A stretch of 64,000 bases of DNA, from positions 62,001 to 126,000 of the forward strand of contig WQYX01000001.1 of assembly GCA_009781005.1 (NCBI GenBank), given 5' to 3'. Positions 2,799 through 57,764 of this stretch are shown here, piece by piece (position 1 is the stretch's first letter; each line of letters opens with the position of its first letter). Position numbers and translations under genes: made by a program. Below the pieces are notes generated by a model that searched no databases, was not told where the DNA came from, and worked only from the letters and a program-made list of their open reading frames with translations. Origin of the DNA: Polyangiaceae bacterium (lineage in GTDB: Bacteria > Myxococcota_A > Polyangia > Polyangiales > Polyangiaceae).

Positions 2799-2943
2799 AG
2801 AGCGTGTTCTACAGCCGTTGCGAGCGAATCGAGGCTAGGGCGGAGCGCGAGGAACTCGCGCAAGCGTACTTGTTGTACGTGCGCAGGCACCGCAGCGCCC
2901 AACCGACGAATCGATTCGCGCAGCAGGTTGTAGAACTCGCTCT
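2799..2943. repeat. Palindromic element A1 (family A)
   Basis: Imperfect palindrome of 145 bp. The left end reads AGAGCGTGTTCTACA and the right end, read on the other strand, AGAGCGAGTTCTACA. A central small palindrome is built on GTAC (GTACTTGTTGTAC). Related copies are at 7669-7813 and 57619-57764. The last base is shared with the TGA stop codon of the ArsA-like gene, so the element starts exactly where that gene ends. Confidence 0.9.
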
Positions 2944-3917
2944 CAGCCGAGCCGCCTGGCAAGCTCGTGGATCGCTTCGGGGGTTGCGGCATCCCTGAAG
3001 AGTTGGGGCAGAAACGACGGCGAGATCGGTAGCTCCGATGACAGGCGCGAGAGGCTCTCGGCTTGCACGCGCTCGCGCATGGCTCGCGCGCGTGCCGACG
3101 CGAAGACGACGTTCGACGGCGAACTCCGTTCGACGGGTGCGCCGGTGTCTTCGAGTGCCTTTCGTTCCTCCCTCGAAAAAAGCGGAGGCAAAACGCTGTT
3201 GACGACGACTTTGCCGATGGGCAATTCGAGCTCGACGTCGATGGCTCGCGCGAGCTCGATGGTCTCCGTGATGGCCATCTCCTCCGGTAGCGTGACGAGG
3301 ACGACGGCGCATTGTTTCGGATCCTGAAAGAGTTTCCATGCGCGCTCGGCGTCGCGGCGAAGGACGCCCGGCGGGACCACATCGAGGATCACCTTTGGTA
3401 CGCGAAGCATGTCGAGGCCGTGTCCCGTTGCGGGTGCATCGAGGACGACGACGTCGTAAACGGGACTCTCGTCCGCACGCGTCTCGGTGGTGTGCCACCA
3501 CGCCTTGCCGAGCATCGTCCATTCCTGCATGCCGGGCACGGCGCGGAAAAACGCGCGCACGTACTTGTTGTCGAAGAGCAGCTTGAACAGCGTCTCCGAG
3601 CGGAGCGCCATCATTCCGTATTCGTGCAGCGCATTCTCCGGATCCATGTTGACGGCCCAGACGTTCGGCGCCACGGGCACCACGTCCGAGCCGATGGGGG
3701 CCGCGCCGAGCATCGTCGACAGGCGCTCCTTTGCGTTGCACATGCAGACGAGCACGCGCTTGCCTTTGTTGGCGAGCGCCACGGCCTCGGCGGCACACAC
3801 GGTTGTCTTGCCAACACCGCCTTTGCCCGTGACGATGAGAAAGCGCTTCGTTTCGAGTCCCGCCGGGTGAGCCGAGTGAATTGTCCGCTGGCTTTTTCGG
3901 GGCTCGGAAGCCGACAT
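2943..3917 (-). CDS. ArsA/GET3-family anion-transporting ATPase
   Basis: The product has 324 residues. The deviant Walker A motif GKGGVGKTT lies near residue 30, and a Walker-B-like VVVLDAPATGHGLDML is present; both are typical of the ArsA/GET3 branch of SIMIBI ATPases. Family members move arsenite or handle tail-anchored membrane proteins. Single-domain bacterial homologues without ars genes nearby, as here, have no settled role, and myxobacteria often carry them in pairs. I chose the ATG at 3917; a TTG directly before it would add one residue. The stop codon shares its last base with palindromic element A1. The gene is divergent from RNase J. Confidence 0.85.
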   Translation of the reverse strand: MSASEPRKSQRTIHSAHPAGLETKRFLIVTGKGGVGKTTVCAAEAVALANKGKRVLVCMCNAKERLSTMLGAAPIGSDVVPVAPNVWAVNMDPENALHEYGMMALRSETLFKLLFDNKYVRAFFRAVPGMQEWTMLGKAWWHTTETRADESPVYDVVVLDAPATGHGLDMLRVPKVILDVVPPGVLRRDAERAWKLFQDPKQCAVVLVTLPEEMAITETIELARAIDVELELPIGKVVVNSVLPPLFSREERKALEDTGAPVERSSPSNVVFASARARAMRERVQAESLSRLSSELPISPSFLPQLFRDAATPEAIHELARRLG

Positions 3918-3992
3918 CAAGGCCCCTCATAGCATGCTCCGTCGTGCATCGAGACCGGGCTTGCGCGGCGCGGCGCGTGCTAGATCCGGGAC

Positions 3993-5627
3993 GTGCTGCG
4001 CCTTCTTCCGCTCGGTGGTCTCGGTGAGGTCGGCATGAATTGCATGGCCCTCGAGCAGCATGGAGAAGTGCTGCTCATCGACTGCGGCGTGAGCTTCGAC
4101 CATCGCGGCCTCGGCGTCGACGTGGTCCATCCGGATTTTTCCTCGCTCGACACGTTCGGCGCGCGCGTCGTTGGGGTCGTCATCACGCACGGCCACGAAG
4201 ATCACATTGGCGCGCTGCCGTATTTGCTAAATCGCTACGACGTCCCGATTTGGGCGCCGCCGTACGCGATCGGCCTCATCGAAGAGCGTTTGAGAGAGCA
4301 CAGGGTGCTCGCCTACGCGCGCATTCGTCCGTCGCATCCGCGTGAGTCCTTCGAGGTTGGTTCGTTCTCCGTCGAACCGATTCGCGTCACGCACTCGATC
4401 GCGGACGCCACCGCACTTGCGATCGAAACCAACGCCGGCACCGTCGTGCACACCGGCGATTTCAAGATCGACGACACTCCGACCGACGGCGAGCACTTCG
4501 ATGCAGAGCGCTTGCGCGAGCTAGGCGACCGCGGAGTCCTACTTTTGATGAGCGACTCGACGAACATCGATATCGCAGGCCCCGCGGGCAGCGAGATGGG
4601 CGTTGGCGATGCGCTCGAGGGTCTCGTCGCGAGCGCGAAGAGCGCAGTCGTCGTCGCCATGTTCGCGTCGAACGTGCACCGGCTCCGGCTCCTCGGCGAC
4701 ATCGCGATACGCCACGGTAGGAAGATCGTCGTCCTCGGTCGGGGCGTCGGCACGCACACCCGCGTGGCCCGCCGCACGGGCTACTTGCCGTGGCCCGACC
4801 ATCTCGTCTGTCCGGAGACGATGGCACCCGAGCTCCCGCGCTCCAAGGTGCTCGGGATTGCCACCGGTTCGCAAGGCGAGGCGCGTGCTGCTCTCGCGCG
4901 CCTCGCGCGCGGAGAGCATCCCACGTTCGAGATCGCTCCGGGCGATCGCGTCGTCCTCTCTTCCCGCACCATCCCGGGCAACGAGCCCGAGGTTCAAGCG
5001 ATCGTCGATCTTCTGATCCGGCGAGGGTGCGACGTGCACTCGCGGATCACCGACGAGAACGTTCACGTCAGCGGCCACGCGCATCGGATCGAGCAGCGGC
5101 GCATGATCGAGCTCGTTCGGCCGACGAACTTCGTGCCCGTGCACGGCACCCTCCACCACCTCACGCGCCACGCTGCGCTCGCTCGCGAAGTCGGTGTCCC
5201 GAACGTTGCCGTGATCGACGATGGCACGGTTGCCGAGATCACCAGCCATGGCATCGCGATCCGCGAAAGAGTCGCAACGGGTCGCGTTCACGTCTATGCG
5301 GGGCACGAGCTCGGGCCTGACGTCCTGCGGGCGCGTATGTTCTTGGCCGAACAGGGGGTCGCGTCGTGCCTCATCGTGGTGGATGCGGCCGGCTCAGTGC
5401 ACGCCGTTGACGTGAAGACCCGCGGCGTCGTGGATGAAGCGTGCTTCGGACGCGAAATCGAAGAGGCGAAAGGTGCCGTTCGGCGCGCGATCCTCGAGCT
5501 TGACGTAGATGCAGAGGACGAGAAAATGGCGGATCATGCGCGGCTCGCGATTCGGCACACGTTCTGGAAATCTCGAGGCATCAAACCCATGACCATCGTG
5601 CACGTTCATCGTCTCGGGCAAGCATGA
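3993..5627 (+). CDS. rnj: Ribonuclease J
   Basis: The product has 544 residues, close to the usual length of about 555. It is a metallo-beta-lactamase/beta-CASP nuclease: the metal motif THGHEDH is at 65-71, followed by HTGDFKID, SDSTN, the beta-CASP GSQGEARAAL region, and the C-terminal VSGHAH and PVHGT motifs that define RNase J. It is expected to have 5'-3' exonuclease and endonuclease activity on mRNA and rRNA in the cytoplasm. The start is a GTG; no upstream in-frame start keeps the family N-terminus. The stop overlaps the ATG of the CHAD gene by four bases, so the two are probably translationally coupled. Confidence 0.93.
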   Translation: MLRLLPLGGLGEVGMNCMALEQHGEVLLIDCGVSFDHRGLGVDVVHPDFSSLDTFGARVVGVVITHGHEDHIGALPYLLNRYDVPIWAPPYAIGLIEERLREHRVLAYARIRPSHPRESFEVGSFSVEPIRVTHSIADATALAIETNAGTVVHTGDFKIDDTPTDGEHFDAERLRELGDRGVLLLMSDSTNIDIAGPAGSEMGVGDALEGLVASAKSAVVVAMFASNVHRLRLLGDIAIRHGRKIVVLGRGVGTHTRVARRTGYLPWPDHLVCPETMAPELPRSKVLGIATGSQGEARAALARLARGEHPTFEIAPGDRVVLSSRTIPGNEPEVQAIVDLLIRRGCDVHSRITDENVHVSGHAHRIEQRRMIELVRPTNFVPVHGTLHHLTRHAALAREVGVPNVAVIDDGTVAEITSHGIAIRERVATGRVHVYAGHELGPDVLRARMFLAEQGVASCLIVVDAAGSVHAVDVKTRGVVDEACFGREIEEAKGAVRRAILELDVDAEDEKMADHARLAIRHTFWKSRGIKPMTIVHVHRLGQA

Positions 5628-6547: not shown

Positions 6548-6554
6548 CACACGC

Positions 6555-6584: not shown

Positions 6585-6637
6585 TGTTTTGCCTCGTTTC
6601 GGTTCCCTGCGGGACCTGTGCGATCGCGGAGGCTCGA

Positions 6638-7669
6638 TTGATTACGTGTCCCAAGTGCAGCAAGGACAATCAGGATCACTACAAATTTTGCTTGGGATGT
6701 GGCGCCGAGCTGCCCCGCGACGTGGGCCCTAAGCCGTTCGTCCCGCAGACACCCATCCCCACGAGGCTGCCGACGCAACCTCCGATGGTCCCCGTTGTTC
6801 CGCCGCCGCCGCCGGTCCCGAACGTGGTCCCGGCCCCGGTAAACGTCGCGCCGCCGGAACCGAACGAGGTTGCGGCCCGGACGCCGTTCGCACCGGAGAT
6901 TTCTTCGGTGTGCCAATGCCCGCAGTGCGGTCACACGAATGCGACATCGAATTTGTTTTGCAGCGGGTGTGGTTTCCGGCTCGAACAGGCCGCTCCTCGG
7001 TCCGTTCGGCAGCCCGCGGTCGCGGCCCCGAGCACGCCTGGGTCGATCGTCCTGACGGCACTGCGAGCGGACGGAACCGAGGCTGCCACGTATGCGCTGC
7101 CAACGGCGACGATGACCGTCGGTCGCGAGACGGGTGCCATCTTCGCCGGTGACAGCTATCTCTCGCCGCGCCATGCAACGTTCACGCAGACGGCAAGCCG
7201 CGTCACGATTCGAGACGAAGGCTCGCTCAACGGCGTCTACAAGAAATTGGTTCGCGATGCCCCGGTCGAACTGAAACCGAATGACGTCTTTCGTATCGGC
7301 CAAGAGATCATCAAGTACGAGGCACTCACGCCGCAGGCGCCTTCGCCGGACGGTGTCGAGCGACTCGGCTCGCCCGCGACGGGCTATGTCGGTCGCATTG
7401 CGCTCGTCATTGGTCGCGACGTGACGGGCAACGCATTTCCAGTTCCGGAAACCGGCGTGCATCTCGGTCGCGAGCGCGGCGACGTCCTCTTCCCCGAAGA
7501 TGGTTATGTCTCGGGCCTGCACTGCCGGCTGTCATGGGAAGATGGCCGGCTGATGCTGACCGATCTCGGAAGCTCGAACGGTTCGTTCCTGCGTCTTCGC
7601 GAGGAAACGGAGATCAGGTCGGGCGACATTCTTTTGATGGGGCAGCAGTTGTTCCGCGTCGCAATCTGA
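6638..7669 (+). CDS. Two-zinc-ribbon, two-FHA-domain protein
   Basis: The product has 343 residues and no signal peptide. Order: zinc ribbon 1 (CPKCS...CLGCG, starting at residue 3), a Pro-rich linker, zinc ribbon 2 (CPQCG...CSGCG), FHA 1 (VGRETG, SPRHA, GSLNG) and FHA 2 (LGRERG, SGLHC, GSSNGSF). FHA domains bind phosphothreonine, so the protein probably docks to a target of one of the many Ser/Thr kinases of such a genome. I place the start at the TTG at 6638 because GCGGAGG stands five bases before it and the zinc ribbon begins two codons later; an ATG-like start further upstream has no such support. Palindromic element A2 shares the last base of the stop codon. Confidence 0.85.
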   Translation: MITCPKCSKDNQDHYKFCLGCGAELPRDVGPKPFVPQTPIPTRLPTQPPMVPVVPPPPPVPNVVPAPVNVAPPEPNEVAARTPFAPEISSVCQCPQCGHTNATSNLFCSGCGFRLEQAAPRSVRQPAVAAPSTPGSIVLTALRADGTEAATYALPTATMTVGRETGAIFAGDSYLSPRHATFTQTASRVTIRDEGSLNGVYKKLVRDAPVELKPNDVFRIGQEIIKYEALTPQAPSPDGVERLGSPATGYVGRIALVIGRDVTGNAFPVPETGVHLGRERGDVLFPEDGYVSGLHCRLSWEDGRLMLTDLGSSNGSFLRLREETEIRSGDILLMGQQLFRVAI

Positions 7670-7813
7670 GAGCATGTCTCCCAGCCTGCTGCGCGCCGCG
7701 ATGCCTTCGTTGGGCCCTGCGGTGCCTGCGCACGTACAACAACGTACGCTTACGCGGGCTCCTCGGGCCCGCCTTGGCCTCGCGTCGCTCGCGACGGCTG
7801 GTAGACATGCTCT
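7669..7813. repeat. Palindromic element A2 (family A)
   Basis: Imperfect palindrome of 145 bp in the opposite orientation to A1. The ends are AGAGCATGTCTCCCAGCC and, on the other strand, AGAGCATGTCTACCAGCC. The centre contains GTACAACAACGTAC. Its first base is the A of the upstream TGA stop codon. Confidence 0.9.
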
Positions 7814-7834
7814 GAGATTTGCAAGGGGGGACCA

Positions 7835-14332: not shown

Positions 14333-14652
14333 ACCGCTTTCAAGTTGACGCGAGGTTTGGAACCCCTCGTAGGTTGCTCCCGTCGTCTTTTGGTCGATTT
14401 GCGTCGCATCGCTTCGTTGCTCCCCCTCGAGCTGCACAAGCAGCTCTCGTCGGAGCGCCTCGCGCTGCTGGCTTCGCGGTGCGACGCCGTGTGCGTGTGC
14501 TACTTGCACACGCACCTTGCAACTCGGCCAAAATACTCGGTCCACAACCTTCAGCGGACCGGAACAGCCTTCCCAGCCCGCGCGCAGGAAGGGCCACGGA
14601 GGTCCCGCCGAAGGCGCCGGCGATGCCGGGATCGCGTCAAATCGAAAGCGGT
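14333..14652. repeat. Palindromic element D1 (family D, long form)
   Basis: About 320 bp bounded by ACCGCTTTCAAGTTGACGCG and, on the other strand, ACCGCTTTCGATTTGACGCG. It holds the family D core GCGGACCGGAACAGCC but also about 190 bp not seen in the shorter copies (29867, 48269, 51994). It fills most of the gap between the PhaR-like gene and the sigma factor; no gene is visible in it. Confidence 0.8.
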
Positions 14653-18328: not shown

Positions 18329-18359
18329 AAAAGTCGCCGGGGGATCTCCCAACGGATTA

Positions 18360-18391
18360 GCGCTACTGCCGGAAGTATTCCGGCAGTAGCG
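18360..18391. terminator. Short hairpin E1 (family E)
   Basis: CGCTACTGCCGGAA, loop GTA, TTCCGGCAGTAGCG: a perfect 14-base stem. It lies between the converging ends of the FHA gene and the first cysteine-rich lipoprotein gene and could end transcription from both sides. Similar hairpins are at 20739 and 56001, and a half copy near 56169. Confidence 0.7.
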
Positions 18392-18396
18392 TTAGG

Positions 18397-20114: not shown

Positions 20115-20624
20115 TTACTGGCAGGCGCTGTTGCAAGCGAGGAGCATGGCGCAGCCGGTGTTGGCATAACACTCTTCGTAGATTGCGCCGGTGCAAGCGT
20201 CTTGGTAGGCCTGCTGACTCTCGCAGGCGACGCATGCGCTGTCAGCGTCGTAGCCTTGGCAGGCCGAAGCTGCGCACGCGTCCGCGCACACACCTCTGCC
20301 ACCGTCTGTGGCCCCCGTGCCTGCGCACGCGCACTGACTCATGACGTTGACGAACATCTTGGCGCCGGTCAGGTGGTTGTTGACGCAGCACCGCAGACAC
20401 GCGTCGGACGAGCCGGCATCTGCGCAGATCGTGTCGACATTCGAGTCTCCTGCCTCGACGTCCGCGCCTGCTTCGACGATGGGCGTGTTCGAGTCTCCTG
20501 CCTCGACGTCCGCGCCTGCTTCGACGATGGGCGTGTTCGAGTCTGTGTTGGATGATGAGCACGCAGGCGTGAAAATAAAAAATGACGCAAACGAAGTTGC
20601 GACAACGAAAGATGAAATCCGCAT
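20115..20624 (-). CDS. Cysteine-rich lipoprotein, paralogue 3 (single domain, repeat linker)
   Basis: The product has 169 residues. It shares the signal and lipobox (TPAC, Cys22) but has only one Cys-rich domain. After the lipobox there are two identical 16-residue units, SNTPIVEAGADVEAGD, encoded by two perfect 48-bp repeats. The spacer probably holds the Cys-rich domain away from the membrane. First gene of the three-gene paralogous run. Confidence 0.72.
   Translation of the reverse strand: MRISSFVVATSFASFFIFTPACSSSNTDSNTPIVEAGADVEAGDSNTPIVEAGADVEAGDSNVDTICADAGSSDACLRCCVNNHLTGAKMFVNVMSQCACAGTGATDGGRGVCADACAASACQGYDADSACVACESQQAYQDACTGAIYEECYANTGCAMLLACNSACQ
20443..20538. repeat. Two perfect 48-bp tandem repeats
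   Basis: Copies at 20443-20490 and 20491-20538 are identical base for base and lie in frame in lipoprotein paralogue 3. Perfect identity suggests recent duplication and likely length variation between strains. Confidence 0.95.
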
Positions 20625-20738
20625 GGCTTTACCTTACCTTGAAAGAATTTGAGATTGAGATTCAATAACTTCTTAACAAGTTATAAGGGCACTGCCGAAG
20701 ACGCCAAAAACGACGTGAAGCCGTGGCGGATTGGGCTA

Positions 20739-20771
20739 GCGCTACTGCCGGAATGCTTCCAGCAGTAGTGC
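20739..20771. terminator. Short hairpin E2 (family E)
   Basis: GCGCTACTGCCGGAA, loop TGC, TTCCAGCAGTAGTGC. The two mismatches against a perfect copy are both G-T (wobble) pairs when read as RNA. It starts three bases past the stop of the TPR gene, on the same strand as it. Confidence 0.65.
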
Positions 20772-20774
20772 TCA

Positions 20775-21635
20775 TCAGAACGCGCCGCCGAGGGAGAGAC
20801 CCGCGAAGCCTGGTCCCACGGTTGGCGTGACGGTTGGCTTCTTCGCGCTGCGCGATTCTATGGATCCGGTGGGTTCCAGGAAATGCCAGATGAGACCGCC
20901 CACGGCGACGGCTGCACCGGCGCCCATGAGAACGATGCCCGTAGTGCCCTGGGTTCTTGACTTGCCTGCTCGGTCCCTGTCGGCCTGGAGATCTGCGTCG
21001 GATTCACCGACCCCCTTGACACAGGTACCCGAACCTGACTCGCAGTTCGAGGGCATGCTGGGTTTCGTCACCAAGATCACCGCACCGGTGATCACTGCGG
21101 CTCCGCCGACGCCAACGACAACCCATGGCAAAATCGTGTGCGAGCGCTCCGGGGCGGGCCGCTGCTGTTCCACCACGGGTTCTTTCGCCTTCGACTCGGC
21201 GGCGATACGCTTTTGAATGTTCTCCATGCGAGCGCGGAGCGAGGCGTCCGCGTTGCTGGCCGGCACGCGATCAAAGTACGCCTGGAGCGCGTTCAGCGCC
21301 TCCTGCAGGTCGCCCTTCGATTCGTACGCGCGCGAGATGTTGATGAGCAACTCGGGCTTCGTGCAGTCGCGCCGATATGCTTCACGATACTGGGCGATGG
21401 CGGCATCCCAGTTGCTGTTGTCGTACGCACTGCGCCCAGCAAGGTAGGCGTCATGTGCGGCGTTGCTTTCTTCGGGCGAGATCGCCCGCCCCGTGCAGGA
21501 CGGATACGGCGGAGCGCCCGCCGTGGCCGTCGCTGTCGCCGGAGCACCCGCCGCAGTCGACTGAGCGTACGCGGGTGTGGAGAAAGCGGTGAACAAGAGA
21601 AGACCAAAACCAAGAGCAGACGTACTTGTGCGCAT
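20775..21635 (-). CDS. Exported TPR protein with two membrane segments
   Basis: The product has 286 residues. A signal peptide (cleavage near AYA-QS) is followed by TPR-like helices (residues about 55-150, AAHDAYLAGRSAYDNSNWDAA). Two hydrophobic segments (ILPWVVVGVGGAAVITGAVI and TGIVLMGAGAAVAVGGLIW) flank a loop with two Cys. The plan is the same as the TPR protein at 62208-63242 and is common in Myxococcota, where its function is unknown; it is probably a cell-envelope scaffold. Confidence 0.75.
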   Translation of the reverse strand: MRTSTSALGFGLLLFTAFSTPAYAQSTAAGAPATATATAGAPPYPSCTGRAISPEESNAAHDAYLAGRSAYDNSNWDAAIAQYREAYRRDCTKPELLINISRAYESKGDLQEALNALQAYFDRVPASNADASLRARMENIQKRIAAESKAKEPVVEQQRPAPERSHTILPWVVVGVGGAAVITGAVILVTKPSMPSNCESGSGTCVKGVGESDADLQADRDRAGKSRTQGTTGIVLMGAGAAVAVGGLIWHFLEPTGSIESRSAKKPTVTPTVGPGFAGLSLGGAF

Positions 21636-21805
21636 GACTATTCTGAATGGCGCAGTCTACAACGTTCCAAGCCTGAGGCGAGAGGCTCTGTCGCAGTAAA
21701 AGCATCCGGAGTCGCCGAGAGGCTCTTTTCGTTATAGAAATGTCGGCTGGAGTGAGGGCATGTCCACAAACCTGCTACTCGCCACGGTTCGCGGACACGT
21801 TCGAG

Positions 21806-22480: not shown

Positions 22481-23056
22481 ATGACCGACGTACTCTCGAA
22501 GCCGGTACTCGTTCTCAATCGCATCTTTCAGCCGGTGCAGCTAACGACGGTAAAACGCGCTTTCATTCTCCTTTACGGTGGCGCCGCCTACGCCGTCGAC
22601 GAAGATGGAGAAGAGTACGATTTCGAGCTGTGGCGGAGGCTGCCGGTGCGTCACACGGACGACGCGTTACCCATTGTTGGCAACGCGCTTCGCGTGCCTC
22701 GCGTCCTGCACTTGCACCGCTATGATCGCGCGCCGAAAATTACCGTTCGACTCACGCGTCGCAACTTGATGCTTCGTGACGGCCATCAGTGCCAGTACTG
22801 CGGCAAGCAGCCCCCGCTTCGCGATCTCAACATCGACCACGTGCTTCCGCGATCGCGGGGTGGTGCCGACTCATGGGAAAATCTCGTGACCGCATGTCGC
22901 TACTGCAACCTCCGCAAAGGCTGGCGGACGCCCGAGGAAGCGAACATGCGTCTCGCACGAAAACCCTCCCGGCCGAAGTGGTCGATGACCGCACAACTCC
23001 TGCATGCCGCGGCAACGAAGTACCGTGAGTGGGAGCCCTTTTTAAAGGCGAGCTAG
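22481..23056 (+). CDS. HNH endonuclease family protein
   Basis: The product has 191 residues. The C-terminal half is an HNH domain with a zinc site: CQYC (104-107), the catalytic region NIDHVLPRSRGG (His120), Asn134 in ENLVTAC, and CRYC (139-142). The N-terminal part VLVLNRIFQPVQLTTVKRAF is typical of the stand-alone HNH proteins found across many bacterial chromosomes, whose biological role is not settled. The stop codon TAG lies inside the terminal repeat of palindromic element B1. Confidence 0.87.
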   Translation: MTDVLSKPVLVLNRIFQPVQLTTVKRAFILLYGGAAYAVDEDGEEYDFELWRRLPVRHTDDALPIVGNALRVPRVLHLHRYDRAPKITVRLTRRNLMLRDGHQCQYCGKQPPLRDLNIDHVLPRSRGGADSWENLVTACRYCNLRKGWRTPEEANMRLARKPSRPKWSMTAQLLHAAATKYREWEPFLKAS

Positions 23057-23239
23057 CCCGGATCATTCATGACGCGATTGCGGTAGAAGGCCGAGACCGC
23101 AGCGAAAAGGGCGCACGCCGTATCGCAGAACCGAGGCGTACTGTACGTACGCCGCAGGTCCGAGGAGCGCCGTACGCCCTTTGCAGCAAAGGGATCGGCT
23201 CTTCTAAGCGGAGTCGTCATGAATGATCCGGGCTAGCTC
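23050..23239. repeat. Palindromic element B1 (family B)
   Basis: About 190 bp bounded by GAGCTAGCCCGGATCATTC and its exact reverse complement. The centre holds GGCGTACTGTACGTACGCC. On the + strand one frame is open through most of it and encodes peptides very like those of copy B2 (34294-34473). It supplies the stop codon of the HNH gene. Confidence 0.92.
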
Positions 23240-23557: not shown

Positions 23558-23905
23558 TCAGAACTCGGCGCGGCCCGCGTCTTTGCCAGCGTCCTTGTCA
23601 GCAAGCTCGGTGTAACCGGCGTCCTTGCCGGCATCCTTGTCAGCGAGCTCCGTGTAACCCGCATCTTTGCCGGCGTCCTTGTCAGCGAGCTCGGTGTAAC
23701 CGGCATCTTTGCCAGCGTCCTTGTCAGCGAGCTCCGTGTAGCCCGCATCGTCGCCGCACAAAACGATGTTCCCGCCGCTGTCTTGCCCGCCGTCCTTGGC
23801 ATCGTTGGCGCCCAGCGTTGCGGACGGCATGGCCGAGCCCACCGTTGCGACCGTTGCAGCCGCTGCAACACCGACGAACATCATCATAGCCTTCATACGC
23901 TTCAT
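23558..23905 (-). CDS. Small exported protein with four 14-residue repeats
   Basis: The product has 115 residues. A signal-like hydrophobic start (MKAMMMFVGVAAAATVATV) is followed by an acidic region made of four copies of GYTELADKDAGKDA. The ATG at 23905 has GGAGG eight bases upstream. The repeats give a low-complexity Asp/Lys/Ala protein of a kind common as a surface or periplasmic spacer in myxobacteria. I recognise no function. An 11-base perfect hairpin lies just upstream in the leader. Confidence 0.6.
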   Translation of the reverse strand: MKRMKAMMMFVGVAAAATVATVGSAMPSATLGANDAKDGGQDSGGNIVLCGDDAGYTELADKDAGKDAGYTELADKDAGKDAGYTELADKDAGKDAGYTELADKDAGKDAGRAEF

Positions 23906-23924
23906 GAAATCATCCTCCAACAGA

Positions 23925-29866: not shown

Positions 29867-29986
29867 ACCGCTTTCAAGTTGACGCGAGGTCAAGGCGGGG
29901 CCGAGGAGCGGACCGGAACAGCCTTGAAGGCTTTGAGGACCGCACCGCAGGCCCCAACGATGAGATCGCGGCAAATCGAAAGCGGT
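29867..29986. repeat. Palindromic element D2 (family D)
   Basis: 120 bp bounded by ACCGCTTTCAAGTTGACGCG and, on the other strand, ACCGCTTTCGATTTGCCGCG. The centre is AGCCTTGAAGGCT. It ends five bases before the 5' end of tRNA-Ser and is the only copy that lies at the 5' side of a gene. Confidence 0.92.
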
Positions 29987-31108: not shown

Positions 31109-31795
31109 ATGAAGCAGTATGCTGCGGAATTGTTCGGTACGTTCTGGCTCGTGCTCGGAGGTTGCGGCAGCGCCATCTTGGCAGCAGGCTTTCCGGGTCT
31201 GGGAATCGGCTTTCTTGGAGTTGCCCTGGCCTTTGGCCTGACCGTGTTGACCATGGCCTACGCCATTGGTCATATCTCAGGCTGCCACCTCAACCCGGCC
31301 GTATCCATCGGCCTCGTCGCGGGCGGTCGTTTCCCGGCCAGCAAATTGCCGGGTTACATCATTGCGCAGGTCCTCGGCGCCGTGCTTGCGGCGGGTGTGC
31401 TGTACCTGATTGCAAGTGGCAAGTCCGAATTCAGCCTTGCAGGTGGCTTTGCCAGCAATGGCTACGGTGACCATTCACCGGGCAAGTACGGCATGCTTGC
31501 CGCGCTGGTTTGCGAAGTCGTGATGACGGCCATGTTCCTGATTGTCATTCTCGGCTCCACCGACAAGCGCGCTCCGGCAGGCTTTGCTCCGATCGCCATC
31601 GGCTTGTGCCTCACGCTGATCCATCTCATCAGCATTCCGGTGACGAACACCTCGGTCAATCCCGCGCGCAGCACCGGCGTGGCGCTGTTCGCCGGTGGCT
31701 GGGCACTACAACAACTCTGGCTGTTCTGGGTTGCGCCGATCCTCGGCGCCGTGCTCGGCGCCACGGTTTATCGCTACATCGGCAGCGAAGAGTAA
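31109..31795 (+). CDS. aqpZ: Aquaporin Z
   Basis: The product has 228 residues and six membrane segments with two half-helices carrying NPA boxes, HLNPAVSIG and SVNPARSTG. Arg after the second NPA and the small residues of the filter fit water-specific AqpZ rather than GlpF. The text [14 protein letters not shown] matches the AqpZ loop. TAAGGAAG stands before the ATG; the frame is open further upstream but is not coding-like. It passes water across the inner membrane. Element C2 starts one base past the stop. Confidence 0.95.
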
Positions 31796-33920: not shown

Positions 33921-34631
33921 TCAAGGTGTGGCAGTCGAACAAACCTTGGACAGTAGAGGCGAGAGGATTTGCGTATCGAAGACGAGATACGCGCGCCAAT
34001 GGAGCACGATCGCCGTCAGGAGAAGGACGACGAGCGCAATCGCCAACGCGGCGAGAGAGCGGCGACGAGATGTCTGCGCATGCGCGGCGACGGGCGCCAC
34101 GTGAGTCCACGGTCGTGGCGGCAGAACTTCGGGCGGCGGCACGAAGATCCGAGGTTGCGAATCGAGCGGTGCGGCACATGCGCGAAGTGCCGCAGCAAGC
34201 CGCTCACGATCTATCGCGCTCGTTGGCAGATCGTGTGGCTCCAAGCAATGCGTCGTTGGCGCCTCCGAAGGCATTGGGACATCGGAATCATCTAGCTCGG
34301 AGAATTCATGACGACTCCGCGTAGAAGAGCCGATCCCTTTGCTGCAAAGGACGTACGGCGTTTCTCGGCCCTGCGGCGTACGTACAGTACGCCTCGGTCC
34401 TGCGATACGGCGTGCGCCCTTTTCGCTGCGGTTTCGGCCTTCTATCGCAATCGCGTCATGAATTCTCTGAGCTAGGGCGGGTTGCGTTACTTCTTCGGGT
34501 GAGATCACGGTGATCTCATCGTCGTACCTATCGATCGCGATCCTCTTCGCTTCGATGGCACGGTTGCGCGTGCGTCCTCGTTCTTCAAGCCTTCGGGTGA
34601 GCCAGGCGGGCAGGGGCGGAATGGGTTCCAT
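33921..34631 (-). CDS. Uncharacterised membrane protein carrying an in-frame palindromic element
   Basis: The product has 236 residues. The N-terminal 50 residues are charged (PAWLTRRLEERGRTRNRAIE), the middle holds a Pro-rich stretch, and one membrane segment lies near the C-terminus (LAALAIALVVLLLTAIVLHW). Residues about 53-112 are encoded entirely by palindromic element B2, whose 180 bp keep the frame. Without it, the flanking parts would still form a protein of about 176 residues. I recognise no family. It lies 67 bases before Ku on the same strand and may be co-transcribed with it. Confidence 0.55.
   Translation of the reverse strand: MEPIPPLPAWLTRRLEERGRTRNRAIEAKRIAIDRYDDEITVISPEEVTQPALAQRIHDAIAIEGRNRSEKGARRIAGPRRTVRTPQGRETPYVLCSKGIGSSTRSRHEFSELDDSDVPMPSEAPTTHCLEPHDLPTSAIDRERLAAALRACAAPLDSQPRIFVPPPEVLPPRPWTHVAPVAAHAQTSRRRSLAALAIALVVLLLTAIVLHWRAYLVFDTQILSPLLSKVCSTATP
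34294..34473. repeat. Palindromic element B2 (family B), inside a gene
   Basis: 180 bp, exactly 60 codons. The ends are AGCTCGGAGAATTCATGACG and, on the other strand, AGCTCAGAGAATTCATGACG. The centre is GGCGTACGTACAGTACGCC. Read on the - strand it encodes RSEKGARRIAGPRRTVRTPQ in the same frame as the gene, where B1 (23050-23239, + strand) encodes RSEKGARRIAEPRRTVRTPQ. The end sequences differ between B1 and B2, but each copy stays self-complementary. Confidence 0.92.
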
Positions 34632-47300: not shown

Positions 47301-48269
47301 GTGGATTCCAAAGATCTCCACGTGGCGGAAGCGAGCGGGCTCGCGGTGGACGCTCCACCAAGCGGACCGCGTGACGCCGTAGAGGAGCGCACGACCGCTA
47401 TCGATCTCGAGGACGTTCGCAAAGGCGGCGATGTCGTGATCGATCAAGCGTGCCTTGTCGTCATCTACGGTCCGGAGCTTGGCAGGCGAGCCACGCTCGT
47501 GAAGAGCATCTTCGAAATCGGACGATCTTCGCGCGCCGATCTTTTGATCGATCAAGAGAGCGTCAGCCGTCATCATGCACAGATCTTCTGGGACGGGCTG
47601 CGCCACACCCTCATTGATTTAGGCTCGACGAACGGCACGTTCATCAACGACCAGAGTGTGACGGAGCGCGTGCTTGCGGATGGTGATCAAATCAAGATCG
47701 GACAATCCATTCTCAAGTACATGGCCGGCGACAACGTCGAAGCTGCCTACCACGAAGTCATCTACCGCCTCATGACGACGGATACGCTCACGCAAACGTA
47801 CAATCGCCGCTACTTCAACGAGGCGCTCGATCGTGAGTATCACAGATCCCTTCGCTACCAGTGCGCGTTGTCACTCGTGATTTTCGACATCGATCACTTC
47901 AAGGACATCAACGATACCTACGGGCACGTTGCGGGGGACAACGTGCTTCGGCAGCTCGCGCTCGTCGTCAAGCCCCGCCTGCGAAGCCAGGACATTTTTG
48001 CGCGCGTGGGCGGAGAAGAATTCGCCGTCATGCTGCCCGAGGTCGAACTCGCCGGTGCGCGCATCGCGGCCGACAAGGTTCGTAAGCTCGTCGAGACCGC
48101 ACGCTTTTCCATCGATGACCCGAATGATCAAAAGGAGATCGGCTGTACGGTCAGCGCGGGCGTTGCCTCGTTCGACGAGCATATGGCATCTCCAACCATG
48201 CTCTACGAAAAGGCCGACGCAGCACTCTACATCGCAAAGAATCTCGGTCGTAACCGCATCTCCGGCTGA
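47301..48269 (+). CDS. FHA-GGDEF protein, probable diguanylate cyclase
   Basis: The product has 322 residues. An FHA domain lies at about residues 65-135 (IFEIGRSSRADLLI, VSRHHAQI, LGSTNGTFIND) and a GGDEF domain follows (DTLTQTYNRRYFNEAL, SLVIFDIDHFKDIND, RVGGEEFAVMLP). The variant GGEEF is active in known cyclases. It would make cyclic di-GMP in response to a phosphothreonine partner, linking kinase and c-di-GMP signalling. The start is a GTG. The final A of TGA is the first base of palindromic element D3. Confidence 0.92.
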   Translation: MDSKDLHVAEASGLAVDAPPSGPRDAVEERTTAIDLEDVRKGGDVVIDQACLVVIYGPELGRRATLVKSIFEIGRSSRADLLIDQESVSRHHAQIFWDGLRHTLIDLGSTNGTFINDQSVTERVLADGDQIKIGQSILKYMAGDNVEAAYHEVIYRLMTTDTLTQTYNRRYFNEALDREYHRSLRYQCALSLVIFDIDHFKDINDTYGHVAGDNVLRQLALVVKPRLRSQDIFARVGGEEFAVMLPEVELAGARIAADKVRKLVETARFSIDDPNDQKEIGCTVSAGVASFDEHMASPTMLYEKADAALYIAKNLGRNRISG

Positions 48270-48454
48270 CCGCTCTCGCTTTGGCGCGATCTCTTCGTTG
48301 GGCCTGCGCTGCGGTCCTCAAAGCCATACAAGGCTGTTCACTTCGCTTCGCTCCGTCGCTCTCACTGCACTCCGTCCACTTCGTGGACTCCGTGCAGTTC
48401 GAGTCCGGTCGCATCCCACGCTCCGCCTCGACCTCGCGCCAAATCGAGAGCGGT
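48269..48454. repeat. Palindromic element D3 (family D)
   Basis: 186 bp bounded by ACCGCTCTCGCTTTGGCGCG and, on the other strand, ACCGCTCTCGATTTGGCGCG. The core is inverted relative to D2 and D4 (TCTTCGTTGGGCCTGCGCTG) and has about 65 extra bases in the middle holding several TCC/GGA hairpins. It starts at the stop codon of the FHA-GGDEF gene. Confidence 0.9.
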
Positions 48455-50753: not shown

Positions 50754-51995
50754 TCACCGGCACCTTGCAAGGACCGACGCCGACATCTCGTGACACACGA
50801 AGCAAGGCCGCGGGTTACGTCGCATCTGCGTCGCGCAATGGCTCGCGAAGTTCCCCAGGTGCGGATTGTAGCCGCCGCCGATCCCCTGGCCGCCGTGACA
50901 CGCGACGCAGTCACGTTCGATGTGGCAGCTCACGCACGCGTTGAGATTGCGCATGGCCTCGAACGAGTGATGTCCCGGTCTGCGCGGTGGATCACTCCAC
51001 ACCGATTTTGGCGGATGGAAACGACCTGGCTCGCGCACGCCGCTCGGGCCGCTCATCGACACGCCGAGCCGCTGGTGACACGGCAGGCAGAAGCTTTGCT
51101 CGCGGTGGCAGCTCGTGCACTTCTGCGTCGCGAGCCGCGCTTCGACCGGATGCATCGCGAGGTAGTCGCTCGGGTGGATGTTGCGCGGGCGCACGCGCCC
51201 GTCATGGCACCCTGCGCAGTACTCTTCTTTGTGGCAGTTCGCGCAGAACTCGGAGTCGTTGGCCGCAACCTGCTTGTGCCGCTGAAGAAAGTCCGGCGTG
51301 TGCTCCGCGTCGTGCAGACCTCGCTCCGGAAGGAGCACGCCGCTCGGAAAGACCGTGCGGAGGCGGCCGCCTTCGTTGGTGCCTCCCTTGATGTGGCACG
51401 TCTCGCACGCGCCCTTGGCATCACCGCTGGCGGGTGACTCCGGCTGCTGGTGACATCGCAGGCACGCGCGCATGCGAGGAAGATCGTCGCGCGTCGCAAG
51501 CTCGCTCTCCTGGACGTCGCCATGACACTGCGCGCAGCCAATGTTGCGTGCTCCGTGCTTTGCGTGGCTGAAGATCACGTTCGGCCGCGGTATTTCCAGT
51601 TTCGCGACCCGGTTGCCGTCGCCCTCTCGATATCCAACGTGGCAATGGTTGCACTTTCCCATCTTCTCGTCGTCGCCGGGCTGGACGTGATGGAGATCGA
51701 GATGGTTGGTGCCATGGCATGAATCACACGTCGTGCCTTGCGGCGTGAGGATCTCGCCGGAGGTTTGACTCGTGAGCGCATTTGGATGGCACGTCTTGCA
51801 TTCGAGCTTTTGGTCTTTGACGTGGGACTTGTGGTTGAAGCGGATCGTGATGTTTTGCGGCGGGAAGATGGCTTTGCTCGGGCCGCCGTTGTCGGCGTCG
51901 GATCTTGCGAACGCTGGCGCCTGTACGAACGCAAGGAGCGCCGCGACCACGAGGACACCAAGCAAGAACCAAAAAGCTGGCGCCAACGGTGGCAC
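50754..51995 (-). CDS. Thirteen-haem c-type cytochrome
   Basis: I count thirteen CxxCH motifs (CKTCH, CDSCH, CNHCH, CAQCH, CLRCH, CETCH, CANCH, CAGCH, CTSCH, CLPCH, CVSCH, CVACH, CFVCH) in about 410 residues, with many extra His for axial ligands. A hydrophobic N-terminal segment (FWFLLGVLVVAALLAFVQA) exports it. It probably carries electrons in the periplasm or through the outer membrane. The start is ambiguous: GTG at 51995 opens at the signal segment, while ATG at 52115 would add 40 residues encoded entirely by palindromic element D4. Most likely the GTG or a nearby TTG is used. Confidence 0.85.
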   Translation of the reverse strand: MPPLAPAFWFLLGVLVVAALLAFVQAPAFARSDADNGGPSKAIFPPQNITIRFNHKSHVKDQKLECKTCHPNALTSQTSGEILTPQGTTCDSCHGTNHLDLHHVQPGDDEKMGKCNHCHVGYREGDGNRVAKLEIPRPNVIFSHAKHGARNIGCAQCHGDVQESELATRDDLPRMRACLRCHQQPESPASGDAKGACETCHIKGGTNEGGRLRTVFPSGVLLPERGLHDAEHTPDFLQRHKQVAANDSEFCANCHKEEYCAGCHDGRVRPRNIHPSDYLAMHPVEARLATQKCTSCHREQSFCLPCHQRLGVSMSGPSGVREPGRFHPPKSVWSDPPRRPGHHSFEAMRNLNACVSCHIERDCVACHGGQGIGGGYNPHLGNFASHCATQMRRNPRPCFVCHEMSASVLARCR

Positions 51996-52112
51996 CGCAA
52001 ACGATTTGGTGCGAGGTCGAGGCGGGGCCGAGCAGCGGACCGGAACAGCCTTTTGGCTTTGAGGACCGCAGCGCAGGCACCAACGAAGAGATCGCGCCAA
52101 AGCGGAAGCGGT
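51994..52112. repeat. Palindromic element D4 (family D), at a gene junction
   Basis: 119 bp bounded by ACCGCAAACGATTTGGTGCG and, on the other strand, ACCGCTTCCGCTTTGGCGCG. The centre is AGCCTTTTGGCT. It fills the whole junction between the outer-membrane barrel gene (whose stop codon contains its first base, read on the - strand) and the cytochrome gene. Confidence 0.92.
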
Positions 52113-53575
52113 CATTTGGTGACCGCCAGGTTGAGCCAAAACATCAGGCGGAAGCGCTGCCCCGACAGCCGGTTGATGTCGTGCTCGAATTCCGCGAGCG
52201 CGAGCGATCTCGGCATAAGCTTGTATCCTGCACCAATCACGTACTGAGCAGAGACGGCGCTGCGACTCGTGCGGTCGGCGTCGTTCCACTGCCAGACGCC
52301 CGCACGCCCTTGCAGCACGTAACGCGTTTCGAGCACGCGCTCGCCGTAGACGTCCATGCCGATGCGATCGCTCGACATCGCGAAGTCGCCCGCGCCGCGC
52401 GCGCCGAACTGCCCTTCGCCCCATCGGTAGCGCACCGAGACGTCGCCGCCGCCCATGGGTTCGAACTCACTGTCTTCGGCGGCGGTTTGGACCATGAAGA
52501 CGCGTCCGCGCAGGCCTCCGGCGATGCTCAACTTTTCGGTTGCGTCCCAATTCGCGCGCACGGACAGATCGTTCATGGGGGAAGGCATGAAGAAATTCCA
52601 GATCGAGTCGGCGTCGAACGTGGGCACGTAGTAGTCGTAGTCGGCGCTCACCGTGACGCGTTTGGAGACGTAGGCGTCGACCGACGCGAAGAGGGTCGAC
52701 ATGCGTGCAATATACATGTCGTAAGCAAGCCCCGCTTTGGCTCCGCCAACGTTGGCGAGCGTTGCATCCATCGCGAAGCCCACGCGCTCCTGCGAGACGC
52801 GCCAGCCATCGTACGTGGTCGACGTGCCGGGACTGCTCGCAAATGCCGCGACGTTCGAACTGCCTGTATTTTCCACGCGTCGGTAGGTGAGCCGCCCGTG
52901 CAGCCAAGACAAGCCCGTCGTCTCGATGGCAAAGCCATAGGCGGGAGCCACGTCGTTCTGCTGAAACGACGTCCACGAGCCCGTGTCGTAGCCTGTTCGA
53001 TCCCCGCGCCAGATGCCGTCGCGCTCGTAGCGCGGCAAAGACAGCGGCATGCCCCCACGTTGCTCCATGCCTCCGTAGATCTCGGTTGCGAAGTAGTACG
53101 GCGTCGTGATCTTCACGAGGCCGCCGTCGAACGACCACCAGCCGAGCGCATCGGTCACGTACTGGCGGCCGATGCGGAAGCCGAGCCACCCGCCGAGAAA
53201 ACGACGGCCTTCGACATAGCCGTACATGAGATCCACGGGTCCGCGATCGAAGCCGGGGACGAGGCGGCCGAAGTTCGACACCTGCGTTTCCGCGCTGTCG
53301 CCGCCGTAGTCCGCGTCGTAGCGAAGGCGAGCGCGAAACGACAGCTCCGGCCCTTTGCCGTCCTTTGGTCGGTCGATCAGATCGTAGACCGCAACGCCGA
53401 GCGTCGTCGTCAGGCGCCGGCGCGTGATGACGGTTTCGCCCGATGGGCTGCGCATCTCGTAAAACTGCGCCGCCGAGTCGACAGTGAGTTCGGAGTCGGC
53501 AGCGCGGGCGATCCCGGCGTCCGCGAGTGTCGGCGGCGTAAGCAGAAGAGCGGCGACGGCGTGACGTGCGGACAT
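52112..53575 (-). CDS. Outer-membrane beta-barrel protein (porin-cytochrome partner)
   Basis: The product has 487 residues. A signal peptide (LLTPPTLADAGIARA) is followed by alternating beta-strands rich in Tyr and Gly, such as RGPVDLMYGYVEGRRFLGGW, AGLAYDMYIARMSTLFASV and SARYVIGAGYKLMPR-like text, and it ends in RLMFWLNLAVTK with an aromatic near the C-terminus. This is a large barrel of about 20-plus strands. Next to a 13-haem cytochrome it fits the barrel of a porin-cytochrome conduit (as MtrB or PioB), though I see no close match to either by eye. First gene of the operon. Confidence 0.8.
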   Translation of the reverse strand: MSARHAVAALLLTPPTLADAGIARAADSELTVDSAAQFYEMRSPSGETVITRRRLTTTLGVAVYDLIDRPKDGKGPELSFRARLRYDADYGGDSAETQVSNFGRLVPGFDRGPVDLMYGYVEGRRFLGGWLGFRIGRQYVTDALGWWSFDGGLVKITTPYYFATEIYGGMEQRGGMPLSLPRYERDGIWRGDRTGYDTGSWTSFQQNDVAPAYGFAIETTGLSWLHGRLTYRRVENTGSSNVAAFASSPGTSTTYDGWRVSQERVGFAMDATLANVGGAKAGLAYDMYIARMSTLFASVDAYVSKRVTVSADYDYYVPTFDADSIWNFFMPSPMNDLSVRANWDATEKLSIAGGLRGRVFMVQTAAEDSEFEPMGGGDVSVRYRWGEGQFGARGAGDFAMSSDRIGMDVYGERVLETRYVLQGRAGVWQWNDADRTSRSAVSAQYVIGAGYKLMPRSLALAEFEHDINRLSGQRFRLMFWLNLAVTK

Positions 53576-55123: not shown

Positions 55124-55190
55124 CCTGCTGCGAGCCGCGATGCCGGCGTTGGGCTCTGCGCTCATTTGCGCGTGGCCCTTCGCGTGAGCT
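55124..55190. repeat. Partial family A element (A4, decayed)
   Basis: CCTGCTGCGAGCCGCGATGC and GCGTTGGGCTCTGCGCTCAT closely match the first part of the A2 core at 7683-7730 (CCTGCTGCGCGCCGCGATGC and TCGTTGGGCCCTGCGGTGC). The outer end and right half are missing. It lies between the kinase and SUMF1 genes, again starting at a stop codon. Confidence 0.6.
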
Positions 55191-55202
55191 ATCGATGGCA
55201 CC

Positions 55203-55961: not shown

Positions 55962-56000
55962 CCATGGGATATGAAAAGTATGAACGCGCGACGGGCTTTA

Positions 56001-56033
56001 GCACTCCTGCCGGAAGTATTCCGGCAGGAGTGC
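56001..56033. terminator. Short hairpin E3 (family E) with hairpin-rich flank
   Basis: GCACTCCTGCCGGAA, loop GTA, TTCCGGCAGGAGTGC, extended by two pairs outside (55999-56035). It is a 15-17 base perfect stem. The next 150 bases, to the M18 stop at 56183, hold more hairpins (AGCCGCGGGAGCGGCT, GGGGGCGCCGCGCCCCC) and a half-copy of E ending TTCCGGCAGTAGCG at about 56183. Confidence 0.7.
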
Positions 56034-56182
56034 TAGCAAAGCCGCGGGAGCGGCTTTTCGGAGGGGTGAATTGCCGGCGAAAGCGGGCAAGAGGGGGCGC
56101 CGCGCCCCCTTGAGACAAGTGAACACGACGGGTTTCCGCGAAGCGGAAACGCATAGCCCGGAACGAAGTTCCGGCAGTAGCG

Positions 56183-57493
56183 TTAATCTGGGTCGGCGCA
56201 GCCGTAGAAAAGGTCGAGCACGCGCGTCATCATCGCCGGATCTTCGCTGCCGCAGAGTTCGCGAATCGAATGCATGCTCAGCATGGGGCTGCCCACGTCG
56301 ACGGTGCGAATGCCGAGGAGCGTCGAGGTGATGGGGCCGATCGTCGAGCCGCAAGGTAGATCCGTGCGGTGTACGTAGTTTTGCGCGGGCACTTCGGCGC
56401 GCGCGCAGAGATCGCGAAAGAGAGCCGCCATTTTGCCGCTCGTCGCGTAGCGTTGTTGGCTATTCGTCTTGATGACCGGACCGCCGTTCAGGACGGGTTT
56501 GTGGCGTGTTTCGTGGCGTGATTCGTAATTTGGATGGACCGCATGCGCCATGTCTGCAGACACGCAGAGCGAGCCGGCGAGTGCGCGATGGAAGCTTTCG
56601 CGGCCGCCGCCGCGGCCGAGGACGATGCGCTCGAGTGTGCGCGGCAACGCCGCGGAGTGCGCGCCGTACGCGGTCTCGCTGCCAACCTCTTCATGGTCGA
56701 ACAGTGCGCAGACGGCCACGACGTCGCTTGCCTCCACGCGCTCGGCCGCGGCGATGATCGCGCAGATGGCCGCGTGCGACATGGCGAGATTGTCCAGACG
56801 CGCGCCGAAGATCATCTCGCCGCCGCGCCCTCCGCGCGTCGGCGGAACGACGTCGTAGAGCATGAGTTCGTTGCCTGCGATGCGCTCTCGGTCGACGCCG
56901 ATCTTGTCCGCGAGCATTGCCCGAAGATCTTTCGCGCTCTCGTTCGCGAGACCGAAGATCGGCGCGAGGTGCTCCTGGCGATTGAGCACGACCCCCTTGT
57001 CGTTCACGTCGCGATCGAGATGGATCGCGAGCTGCGCGACGCGAAGCATGGGTTCGTCGAATCGAACGAGGCGCGTTTCGAGTCGCGACGAGCCGTCGTT
57101 TGGTGCGAGGAAAACCCTGCCTGCGAGCGACAGATCCCGATCGAGCCACGAGTTCAACAAGGCGCCGCCGTAAACCTCGACGCCGAGCTGCGCGTAGCCT
57201 TCTTTCGTGTACTCGGGCGCGGGCTTGAGCCGGAGGTTCGGGCTGTCGGTATGGGCACCGACGATGCGAAAGCCCGAGATCGGTTTCTTCTCGGGCACGA
57301 TGAACGCAAGCAGACTCGATCCGCCGTGCGCGAAAAGGTAGCGACCGGGCGCGAGATCTTCCCATGAATCGGTCTCGGCAAGGGCCGAAAATCCAGCCGT
57401 GCGAAGGCGCCGCTGCGCGCTCTCCACGGCGTGAAAGGGTGTTGGGGATTCGCCGAGGTACGCGAGCAAATCAATCAAAATAGGATCGATCAC
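56183..57493 (-). CDS. apeB: M18-family aminopeptidase
   Basis: The product has 436 residues, standard for the family. The metal ligands are in VGAHTDSPNLRLKP (His), FDHEEVGSE (Glu pair) and the Asp region AHSAALPRTL; HAVHPNYESRHETRH with the terminal His and GSTIGPITSTLLGIRTVDVG (quoted in part) are typical. It removes N-terminal Asp/Glu or other residues from peptides in the cytoplasm as a large homo-oligomer. The ATG at 57493 starts MIDPILIDLLAYLGESPTPF. The gene ends near the E hairpin cluster. Confidence 0.95.
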   Translation of the reverse strand: MIDPILIDLLAYLGESPTPFHAVESAQRRLRTAGFSALAETDSWEDLAPGRYLFAHGGSSLLAFIVPEKKPISGFRIVGAHTDSPNLRLKPAPEYTKEGYAQLGVEVYGGALLNSWLDRDLSLAGRVFLAPNDGSSRLETRLVRFDEPMLRVAQLAIHLDRDVNDKGVVLNRQEHLAPIFGLANESAKDLRAMLADKIGVDRERIAGNELMLYDVVPPTRGGRGGEMIFGARLDNLAMSHAAICAIIAAAERVEASDVVAVCALFDHEEVGSETAYGAHSAALPRTLERIVLGRGGGRESFHRALAGSLCVSADMAHAVHPNYESRHETRHKPVLNGGPVIKTNSQQRYATSGKMAALFRDLCARAEVPAQNYVHRTDLPCGSTIGPITSTLLGIRTVDVGSPMLSMHSIRELCGSEDPAMMTRVLDLFYGCADPD

Positions 57494-57531
57494 GAGCTCC
57501 TTCTAGCCTACGCTAGGCCTCGCGATCCCCG

Positions 57532-57613
57532 GCACGGGTGGCGAAACTGGCAGACGCAGCGGATTTAGGTTCCGCCGCCGCAAGGCATGAGGGTTCAATT
57601 CCCTCCCCGTGCA
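57532..57613 (+). tRNA. tRNA-Leu(UAG)
   Basis: 82 bases. The acceptor stem is GCACGGG with CCCGTGC, discriminator A, and no encoded CCA. The anticodon loop TTTAGGT on a GCGGA/TCCGC stem gives TAG. A class II variable arm (CGCCGCAAGGCAT region) and the T-arm GAGGG-TTCAATT-CCCTC are present. Palindromic element A3 begins five bases after its 3' end. Confidence 0.96.
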
Positions 57614-57618
57614 CTCTA

Positions 57619-57764
57619 AGAGCGAGTTCGACAGCCGTCGCGAGCGAATCGAGGTTAGGGCAGAGCGCGAGGAGCCCACGAAAGCGTACTTATCGTACGT
57701 GCGCAGGCACCGCAGCGCCCAACCGACGAATCGATTTCGCGCAGCAGGCTGCCCTACACGCTCT
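57619..57764. repeat. Palindromic element A3 (family A)
   Basis: 146 bp bounded by AGAGCGAGTTCGACAGCC and, on the other strand, AGAGCGTGTAGGGCAGCC. The centre is GTACTTATCGTAC. It begins five bases past the 3' end of tRNA-Leu. Confidence 0.9.

Follow-up and report, generated by a model that had tools for sequence, protein, structure and literature searches.

RUP of Streptococcus pneumoniae is a folded element of ~107 nt with ends like those of IS630-Spn1 and TA targets, and it is over-represented between convergent genes (PMC2229807, PMC3049150). ERIC/IRU elements are 127 bp long (PMC2759123), have TA at their termini with a duplication, reach up to 711 copies per genome and are intergenic, lying at the 3' ends of genes in Yersinia (PMC2229807, PMC10969869), while QMITE2 of Coxiella is found mainly in the 3' untranslated regions of genes (PMC10969869). 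Correia/NEMIS elements of Neisseria occur as versions of ~107 and ~155 nt that differ by an internal module, duplicate TA and number more than 120 copies (PMC2229807, PMC10969869), and the REP/REPIN units associated with RAYT are 20–40 nt long and carry a GTAG or CGTC tag (PMC3733652). These characteristics, and the comparisons made with them below, follow the sections of the cited papers that deal with each element. We analyzed a stretch of 64,000 nucleotides from a Polyangiaceae bacterium (G000:C1:62001-126000, hereafter the window), in which a first-pass annotation had recognized dispersed palindromic elements of four types, A to D. Together with A', these are very probably several families of non-autonomous DNA transposons resembling miniature inverted-repeat transposable elements (MITEs), each an imperfect palindrome from end to end.

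The general kind is known, and placement near gene 3' ends has already been described for RUP, ERIC and QMITE2; these particular families look undescribed. Our elements resemble RUP in their ends, which for A are like those of a resident insertion sequence (IS), and in TA targets, folding and an excess between convergent genes; they differ in that A combines IS5 ends with a TNA target, that there are several families, two with a common core, and that placement at stop codons was measured. For ERIC/IRU the sections cited name no mover; our elements are set apart from it by the TNA-type A with IS5 ends, by a core found across an order and by the nesting of B in A. QMITE2 shares the placement at gene 3' ends and is set beside our elements by description only, not by sequence, whereas the Neisseria elements lie mostly upstream of genes (PMC2229807, PMC10969869). 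Like REP/REPIN, A–D are palindromic, intergenic and present in high copy, but no linked RAYT was found for them. A is also close to ISs of the IS5 family, which its terminal repeats match at 15 of 17 bases and with which it shares the TNA duplication; it differs in having no gene and in its interior, a conserved hairpin that the IS pieces did not show. Searches of the open-licence PMC literature, to which ISfinder and most subscription papers do not belong, turned up no report of these elements or of stop-codon-targeting MITEs. What is distinctive is a core common to families with different duplications, together with differing ends, placement at stop codons and the polarity of D. With ~1.5 small mobile hairpins per 10 kb, whose harm would be avoided by leaving stop codons intact or rebuilding them, the genome is a test case for why some genomes hold hundreds of palindromic repeats, for whether repeats target gene ends or only survive there and for whether different transposition systems can have one structured core in common.

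The home genome (G000) comprises 4.77 Mb in 199 contigs. It was sampled as the window plus bases 10001–30000 of contigs C2–C21, 464 kb in total, and a congener (G009) as bases 10001–30000 of contigs C1–C20, 400 kb in total. Profile hits were merged into elements before copies, gene contexts, stop codons and polarity were counted. The 85 profile hits in the G000 sample correspond to 72 elements (27 D, 24 A, 10 B, 6 A' and 5 C), which by scaling gives about 740 elements in the whole genome; the G009 sample contains 32 elements, 24 of them D. BLAST comparison with G000 gave identities of 85–100% for the 40 scored of 476 first-look candidates for A and of 95–100% for the best 40 of 423 for D. B had 39 further places, B2 included, among the 40 scored, and C had 22 matches, of which 8, including C2 itself, were near full length. 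The elements form the bulk of a 74-region repeat cluster in the 464 kb, and D copies stand at several contig ends. The high identity of the scored copies and the size of the cluster refute a chance similarity of GC-rich hairpins, and the earlier description of the elements as non-autonomous, modular and dispersed is supported, with hundreds of copies by scaling. None of the elements contains a transposase gene; their lengths, 120–180 nt, are tight except in copies with inserts. Against Rfam 15, the window gave only two tRNAs at gathering score, and in six loci compared at E ≤ 1 no match fell on an element.

Each copy in the window folds into one long imperfect hairpin, and the families carry the compensatory changes expected of a structured family by the first-pass annotation: in A, represented by 25 sequences, 17 of 49 pairs are compensated, and in B, represented by 22, the number is 8 of 61. 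The covariation score of A was equaled in none of 500 shuffles and lay above all slid controls, with 16 shuffles reaching its number of pair types; that of B was likewise equaled in none of 500, with 296 reaching its number of pair types. The central GTAC...GTAC stem noticed in A, B and C is present in all three and also in A'. The apical loop of D is hypervariable, with a mean entropy of 0.97 bits versus 0.09 for paired and 0.18 for internal-loop positions; in A the values are 0.86, 0.44 and 0.34, and in B the apical loop is not variable (0.11). Separately, we observed that the tip varies among otherwise near-identical copies of D (L031–L060) and A (L001–L030), as if it were cut or recopied with each move.

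Two cyanobacterial loci (L132 and L133) were excluded from the analyses of ends and flanks and from all later ones, and copies with flanks shorter than 15 nt were excluded from the counts of target duplications. A has the form TNA-(GAGC...GCTC)-TNA: the flanking 3-mers are identical in 23 of 31 copies, all 23 being TNA, against a mean of 7.3 for shuffled flanks, and none of 200 shuffles was as high. A' shows a TA duplication in 8 of 17 copies (1 of 200 shuffles as high), and in B the two flanking 2-mers are equal for 17 of 22 copies (3 of 200 shuffles as high, TA being near-universal there). B splits CTAG into CTA-B-TAG, and 6 of the 22 copies have flanks that match an A split at its CTAG, one of these fitting D better; many uninterrupted A copies among the matches listed show a single empty CTAG site. 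At least three insertion signatures are thus present, TNA for A, TA for A' and B and none for D.

The IS1031-type group of the IS5 family has a TNA target. Ten places in G000 and G009 match DDE_Tnp_1, and five of the G000 loci end in A-like repeats. The right ends beside the transposase pieces read GAGCATGTTTACCAGGA in L200 and L202 and GAGCGTGTTCGACAGCA in L196 and L203, with a variant in L198; GAGCATGTTTACCAGGA agrees with the A consensus GAGCATGTTTACCAGCC in all but the last two of its 17 bases, and GAGCGTGTTCGACAGCA with a copy of A in the window (A3) in all but two of 17. The transposase pieces of L200, L202, L203 and L196 match NF033580 (IS5 family), that of L196 above the cut-off. Judged by its sequence, A would be an IS5-related MITE in the features tested, the ends and the TNA duplication, whereas D, which fails the duplication test, is classed as MITE-like only. 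An IS5-type transposase would move A in trans; another enzyme, which duplicates TA, would move A' and B; and D may be moved by an enzyme that leaves no duplication and places it after YTA. Places matching PF01609 or PF01797, the transposase families searched, contained no B, C or D ends except for a D element itself in L200.

Only 1 of the 72 elements in G000 and 3 of the 32 in G009 lie mostly within a predicted gene, and 27 of 72 and 13 of 32, respectively, have an edge no more than 5 nt from a predicted stop codon. As a null we took the share of empty TA, CTAG, CTNAG and YTAG sites outside coding sequence that lie in stop codons, which is at most 0.19 in G000 and 0.144 in G009 (p = 1.8e-4 and 2.6e-4). 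We compared flush genes with their orthologs, keeping 12 of 43 (11 gene pairs) with at least 64% identity and a match reaching the C terminus: seven end at the same terminal residue, two within one amino acid, and three, all adjoining D, differ by 4–18 amino acids. Because the ortholog C termini mostly agree, we argue from these alignments that most of the flush stops are native. The gene at 7112–7669 provides an example. It ends in ...GTC GCA ATC TGA, followed by a copy of A (A2; GAGCATG...GCTC) and a second TGA, and its G009 ortholog ends in ...GTC GCC GTC T followed by GACCGCTTTC, which is a D placed at this stop codon; one orthologous TGA is thus occupied by A in G000 and by D in G009. Copies would gather at gene 3' ends in that a TNA or TA target within the stop codon spares the protein: TNA would duplicate TAA or TGA, TA and the first G of the element would make TAG, and insertions elsewhere would be purged more often.

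Several observations weigh against MITE-like transposition as the full account. No intact IS5 element with A-like ends on both sides was found among the ten DDE_Tnp_1 places, and the IS5 pieces lie near contig ends, that of L196 without a central part. The covariation reaches beyond the ends that a transposase would need. For D, a target duplication was not detected, identical flanks occurring in 9 of 75 copies versus 8.7 among shuffled ones. The gene calls behind the stop counts come from a codon-usage script of our own, and the ends of D, A' and B can make a stop themselves, which inflates their flush counts. For this reason A is the cleaner test of placement at stop codons; taken alone, it has 9 of 24 copies at stops versus 0.134 for CTNAG (p = 0.003). 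Finally, 21 of the 25 D copies at stops run against the gene (11:2 in G000 and 10:2 in G009), a polarity that neutral insertion followed by purging does not predict; the ratio of opposite to same orientation is 10:8 among the stop-flush copies of the other families.

For D, several registers showed no duplication, and no mutual information was found between the flanks; its left side favors YTA(G), a one-sided preference, and one nested copy (L059) would fit a TA duplication within CTAG. As D leaves no duplication, its mobility is inferred from the dispersed near-identical copies and from element-free sites in G009, where the counterparts of five D positions (two in the window, D2 and D4, and three in L223) had no profile hit at E ≤ 1 while the control was found. 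A Y1 enzyme could produce both the lack of a duplication and a one-sided preference, and repeats of the REP/REPIN type moved by a Y1 (RAYT) transposase would also share the palindromic form, high copy number and intergenic position of our elements. The sole Y1_Tnp match in G000 (L204, 1471–1902) is however of the IS200 type, and its 2.5-kb locus contains none of the element ends; none was found in G009, which has many D. These findings leave a Y1/RAYT origin of D unsupported. Such an origin is already unlikely for A and B, and A has a TNA duplication and IS5-like ends; we consider this explanation highly improbable.

The placement downstream of genes could also mean that the elements act for the host, as domesticated 3'-end RNAs whose hairpin, just downstream of the stop codon, would terminate or protect the mRNA and be retained for its usefulness. 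In G000 the median gap is 12 nt to the neighboring gene 3' end versus 182 nt to a 5' start, and elements are more frequent between convergent genes than intergenic regions are: 16 of 27 classified elements versus 42 of 211 regions in G009 and 14 of 70 versus 26 of 215 in G000. The compensatory changes are strong, and in relatives 31 of 34 distinct copies have a plus strand whose fold is more stable than that of the complement. The same comparison at home is not one-sided, the plus strand being the more stable in only 18 of 31 A, 10 of 17 A', 12 of 22 B and 25 of 75 D copies; a single-strand role of the core is accordingly suggested for the relatives and unproven at home. Local GC skew was tried as a source of strand bias and showed no trend (29:22 for D). 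An apparent RNA-level selection, seen as an excess of G–U in the RNAalifold pair tables, was not significant once structures were derived without G–U: the home copies then gave a ratio of G–U to A–C opposites of 24:16 (p = 0.27), and the relatives gave one of 10:3 (p = 0.09). With the wobble test not significant, the folding of transcripts proposed in the first-pass annotation is possible and unproven. A function for the host is further opposed by the orientation of the elements, unbiased in tandem contexts of G000 (18 same and 24 opposite) and mostly against the gene for flush D, and by the absence of a D match from 10 of 11 congeners. We regard a host function as improbable and retain MITE-like transposons as the explanation, in which the conserved core would serve the element, through single-strand or hairpin recognition or through stability, and not the host.

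To follow the core beyond the home genome, we used three models: R1 for D and R2 for A, both run on 58 relatives (the own genome counted), and R3, built from A-type copies of the home genome and relatives and containing no D copy of G000 or G009, run on 377 genomes sampled from the phylum with the best eight candidates per genome scored. The per-genome match numbers of 62 (R1), 54 (R2) and 8 (R3) are lower bounds and not totals. R3 finds two D copies of the window, D2 at E = 5e-14 and D4 at 2.7e-11, and three of its distant members (L310–L312) had earlier also matched the D model; the core that the first-pass annotation saw in both A and D is therefore real. Its proposal of one single family was not supported, as A and D belong together and B and C are at best marginal. 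B scores E = 6.8e-4 with R2 and 0.83 with R3, and a place at 21755–21803 with no recognized element scores equally well; C scores 0.042 and 0.4, on the opposite strand. On these sequence scores, a relationship of B and C to A and D is not convincing.

R2 matched 15 of the 58 relatives, representing 13 of 45 genera, and R1 matched 5. Among eleven congeners, 10 lacked a D match and 9 an A match; both were found in G009, and G005 gave two matches to A. R3 matched 19 of the 377 phylum genomes, those outside the order more weakly. Copies with compensated stems are present in other families of the order and fall into two types. In the type of ~140 nt (alignment A4, which includes the home A), the core GAGGA..GCGTAC-loop-GTACGTGAGC..CCGCAG is conserved, and compensated changes are seen in 26 of the 35 pairs of the alignment. 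In the type of 123–125 nt (alignment A5, 14 copies), compensated changes affect 24 of 42 pairs, including all 17 outer pairs, and inner boxes such as CGCGCAGCAG are invariant down to their unpaired bases. The outer changes in A5 are mainly due to three copies from G018 (L279, L280 and L297), whose ends are wholly different.

Such a pattern could arise if the core, an old structured-RNA or single-stranded-DNA parasite, were itself the selected unit and borrowed its ends from a resident transposon. The compensated outer pairs of A5 and its invariant boxes, the 3 of 14 copies with wholly different ends and the combination of a common core with differing ends and duplications in A, A' and D all agree with this. 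The exchange of ends in A5 nevertheless rests mainly on three copies of one genome, the ends could have diverged along with their IS families, and the strand-specific evidence is mixed. We therefore hold this explanation to be doubtful, and see only a modest chance that an order-wide parasitic single-strand core was captured repeatedly by different transposition systems, an IS5-type TNA system, a TA-type system and one leaving no duplication. If true, a duplication-less system would recognize stop codons with a fixed polarity, and unrelated enzymes would spread one core into gene ends.

Returning to the families of MITE-like transposons, all 11 copies reported for the window (three A, two B, two C and four D) were found again by the family profiles; C1, D1 and D3 were recovered only in pieces, owing to their inserts. 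The terminal inverted repeats that the first-pass annotation placed at the element boundaries are present in all families, whereas the outer edges it gave were too wide: A proper begins with GAGC and B with GCCC, the TNA or TA outside belonging to the target, and B is 177–180 nt long, not 190. For A1 (2799–2943, plus strand) one edge falls at the TGA with which the gene at 2943–3917 (minus strand) stops, and the duplication is imperfect, with the flanking 3-mers TTA and TCA. A2 (7669–7813, minus strand), of 143 nt from GAGC to GCTC, has a perfect TGA duplication, the left TGA being the stop of the gene at 7112–7669 (plus strand). A3 (57619–57764, plus strand) lies directly 3' of a tRNA-Leu with a TAA duplication, and its ends GAGCGAGTTCGACAGCC are similar to the IS end GAGCGTGTTCGACAGCA described above. 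Both copies of B are flanked by CTA and TAG; for B1 (23056–23233, plus strand) the TAG is the stop of the gene at 22481–23056 (plus strand), which ends at the same terminal residue in its G009 ortholog, and B2 lies at 34295–34472 (minus strand). C1 (23237–23452, plus strand) adjoins B1 and has extra short hairpins between its arms, several with C-TTCG-G loops, and C2 (31797–31916, plus strand) begins right after the end of the predicted gene at 31109–31795 (plus strand).

Among the copies of D, the canonical form of 120 nt is D2 (29867–29986, plus strand), directly upstream of a tRNA-Ser and without an element at the orthologous site in G009. D4 (51994–52112, plus strand) lies at the stop of the gene at 52112–53575 (minus strand), whose G009 ortholog has the same terminal residue. 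D1 (14333–14652, plus strand) has the ends of D and a large internal insert, 320 nt in all, of which the D profile matches the right part only; D3 (48269–48454, minus strand), with an added hairpin insert, is 186 nt long and has an edge at the end of the gene at 47301–48269 (plus strand). The fragment reported at 55124 stayed below the cut-offs of the sample-wide profile searches. Searched alone (160 bases), it gave a match of ~40 nt to A' at E = 4.5e-8, borderline once scaled to 464 kb, after 73% identity over 40 nt in the first comparison, and it is probably the remnant of an element.

Extra hairpins or other DNA between the arms were observed in D1, D3, L148, L166, L048, L011 and L170, the last being a D version of 446 nt with several GTAGGGGC-type palindromes. 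In other loci, a short 5' piece of D and target-like sequence stand right before a full D (L047 1476–1621, L173 1472–1625 and the left flanks of L044 and L190), resembling an aborted or tandem insertion. A C/D pair at L223 13941–14361 marks a break in the synteny of G000 with G009: the sequences on either side of it match separate places on a single G009 contig, oppositely oriented.

The samples contain further repeats. At 55996–56187 of the window, a multi-hairpin repeat of ~190 nt was missed in the first pass; it has at least 13 matching places in G009 and no second copy in the 464 kb of G000. Two near-perfect palindromes of ~41 nt with a CTGCCGGAAGTATTCCGGCAG core, at 18355–18395 and 20736–20776, are like the ends of this repeat. 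A second repeat cluster in G009 (25 regions in 400 kb; for example L226 12519–12604) consists of GGGGCGCGATGAATCGCGCCCC-like palindromes with GTAG ends and looks REP-like. In G000, a repeat family beginning with TAAGTGGACCCC (L217 3630–3745; 8 regions, median 107 nt) clusters apart from A–D. The window also contains an exact 48-nt duplication at 20440–20535 and, inside the predicted gene at 23558–23920, a tandem repeat with a 42-nt unit at 23561–23770.

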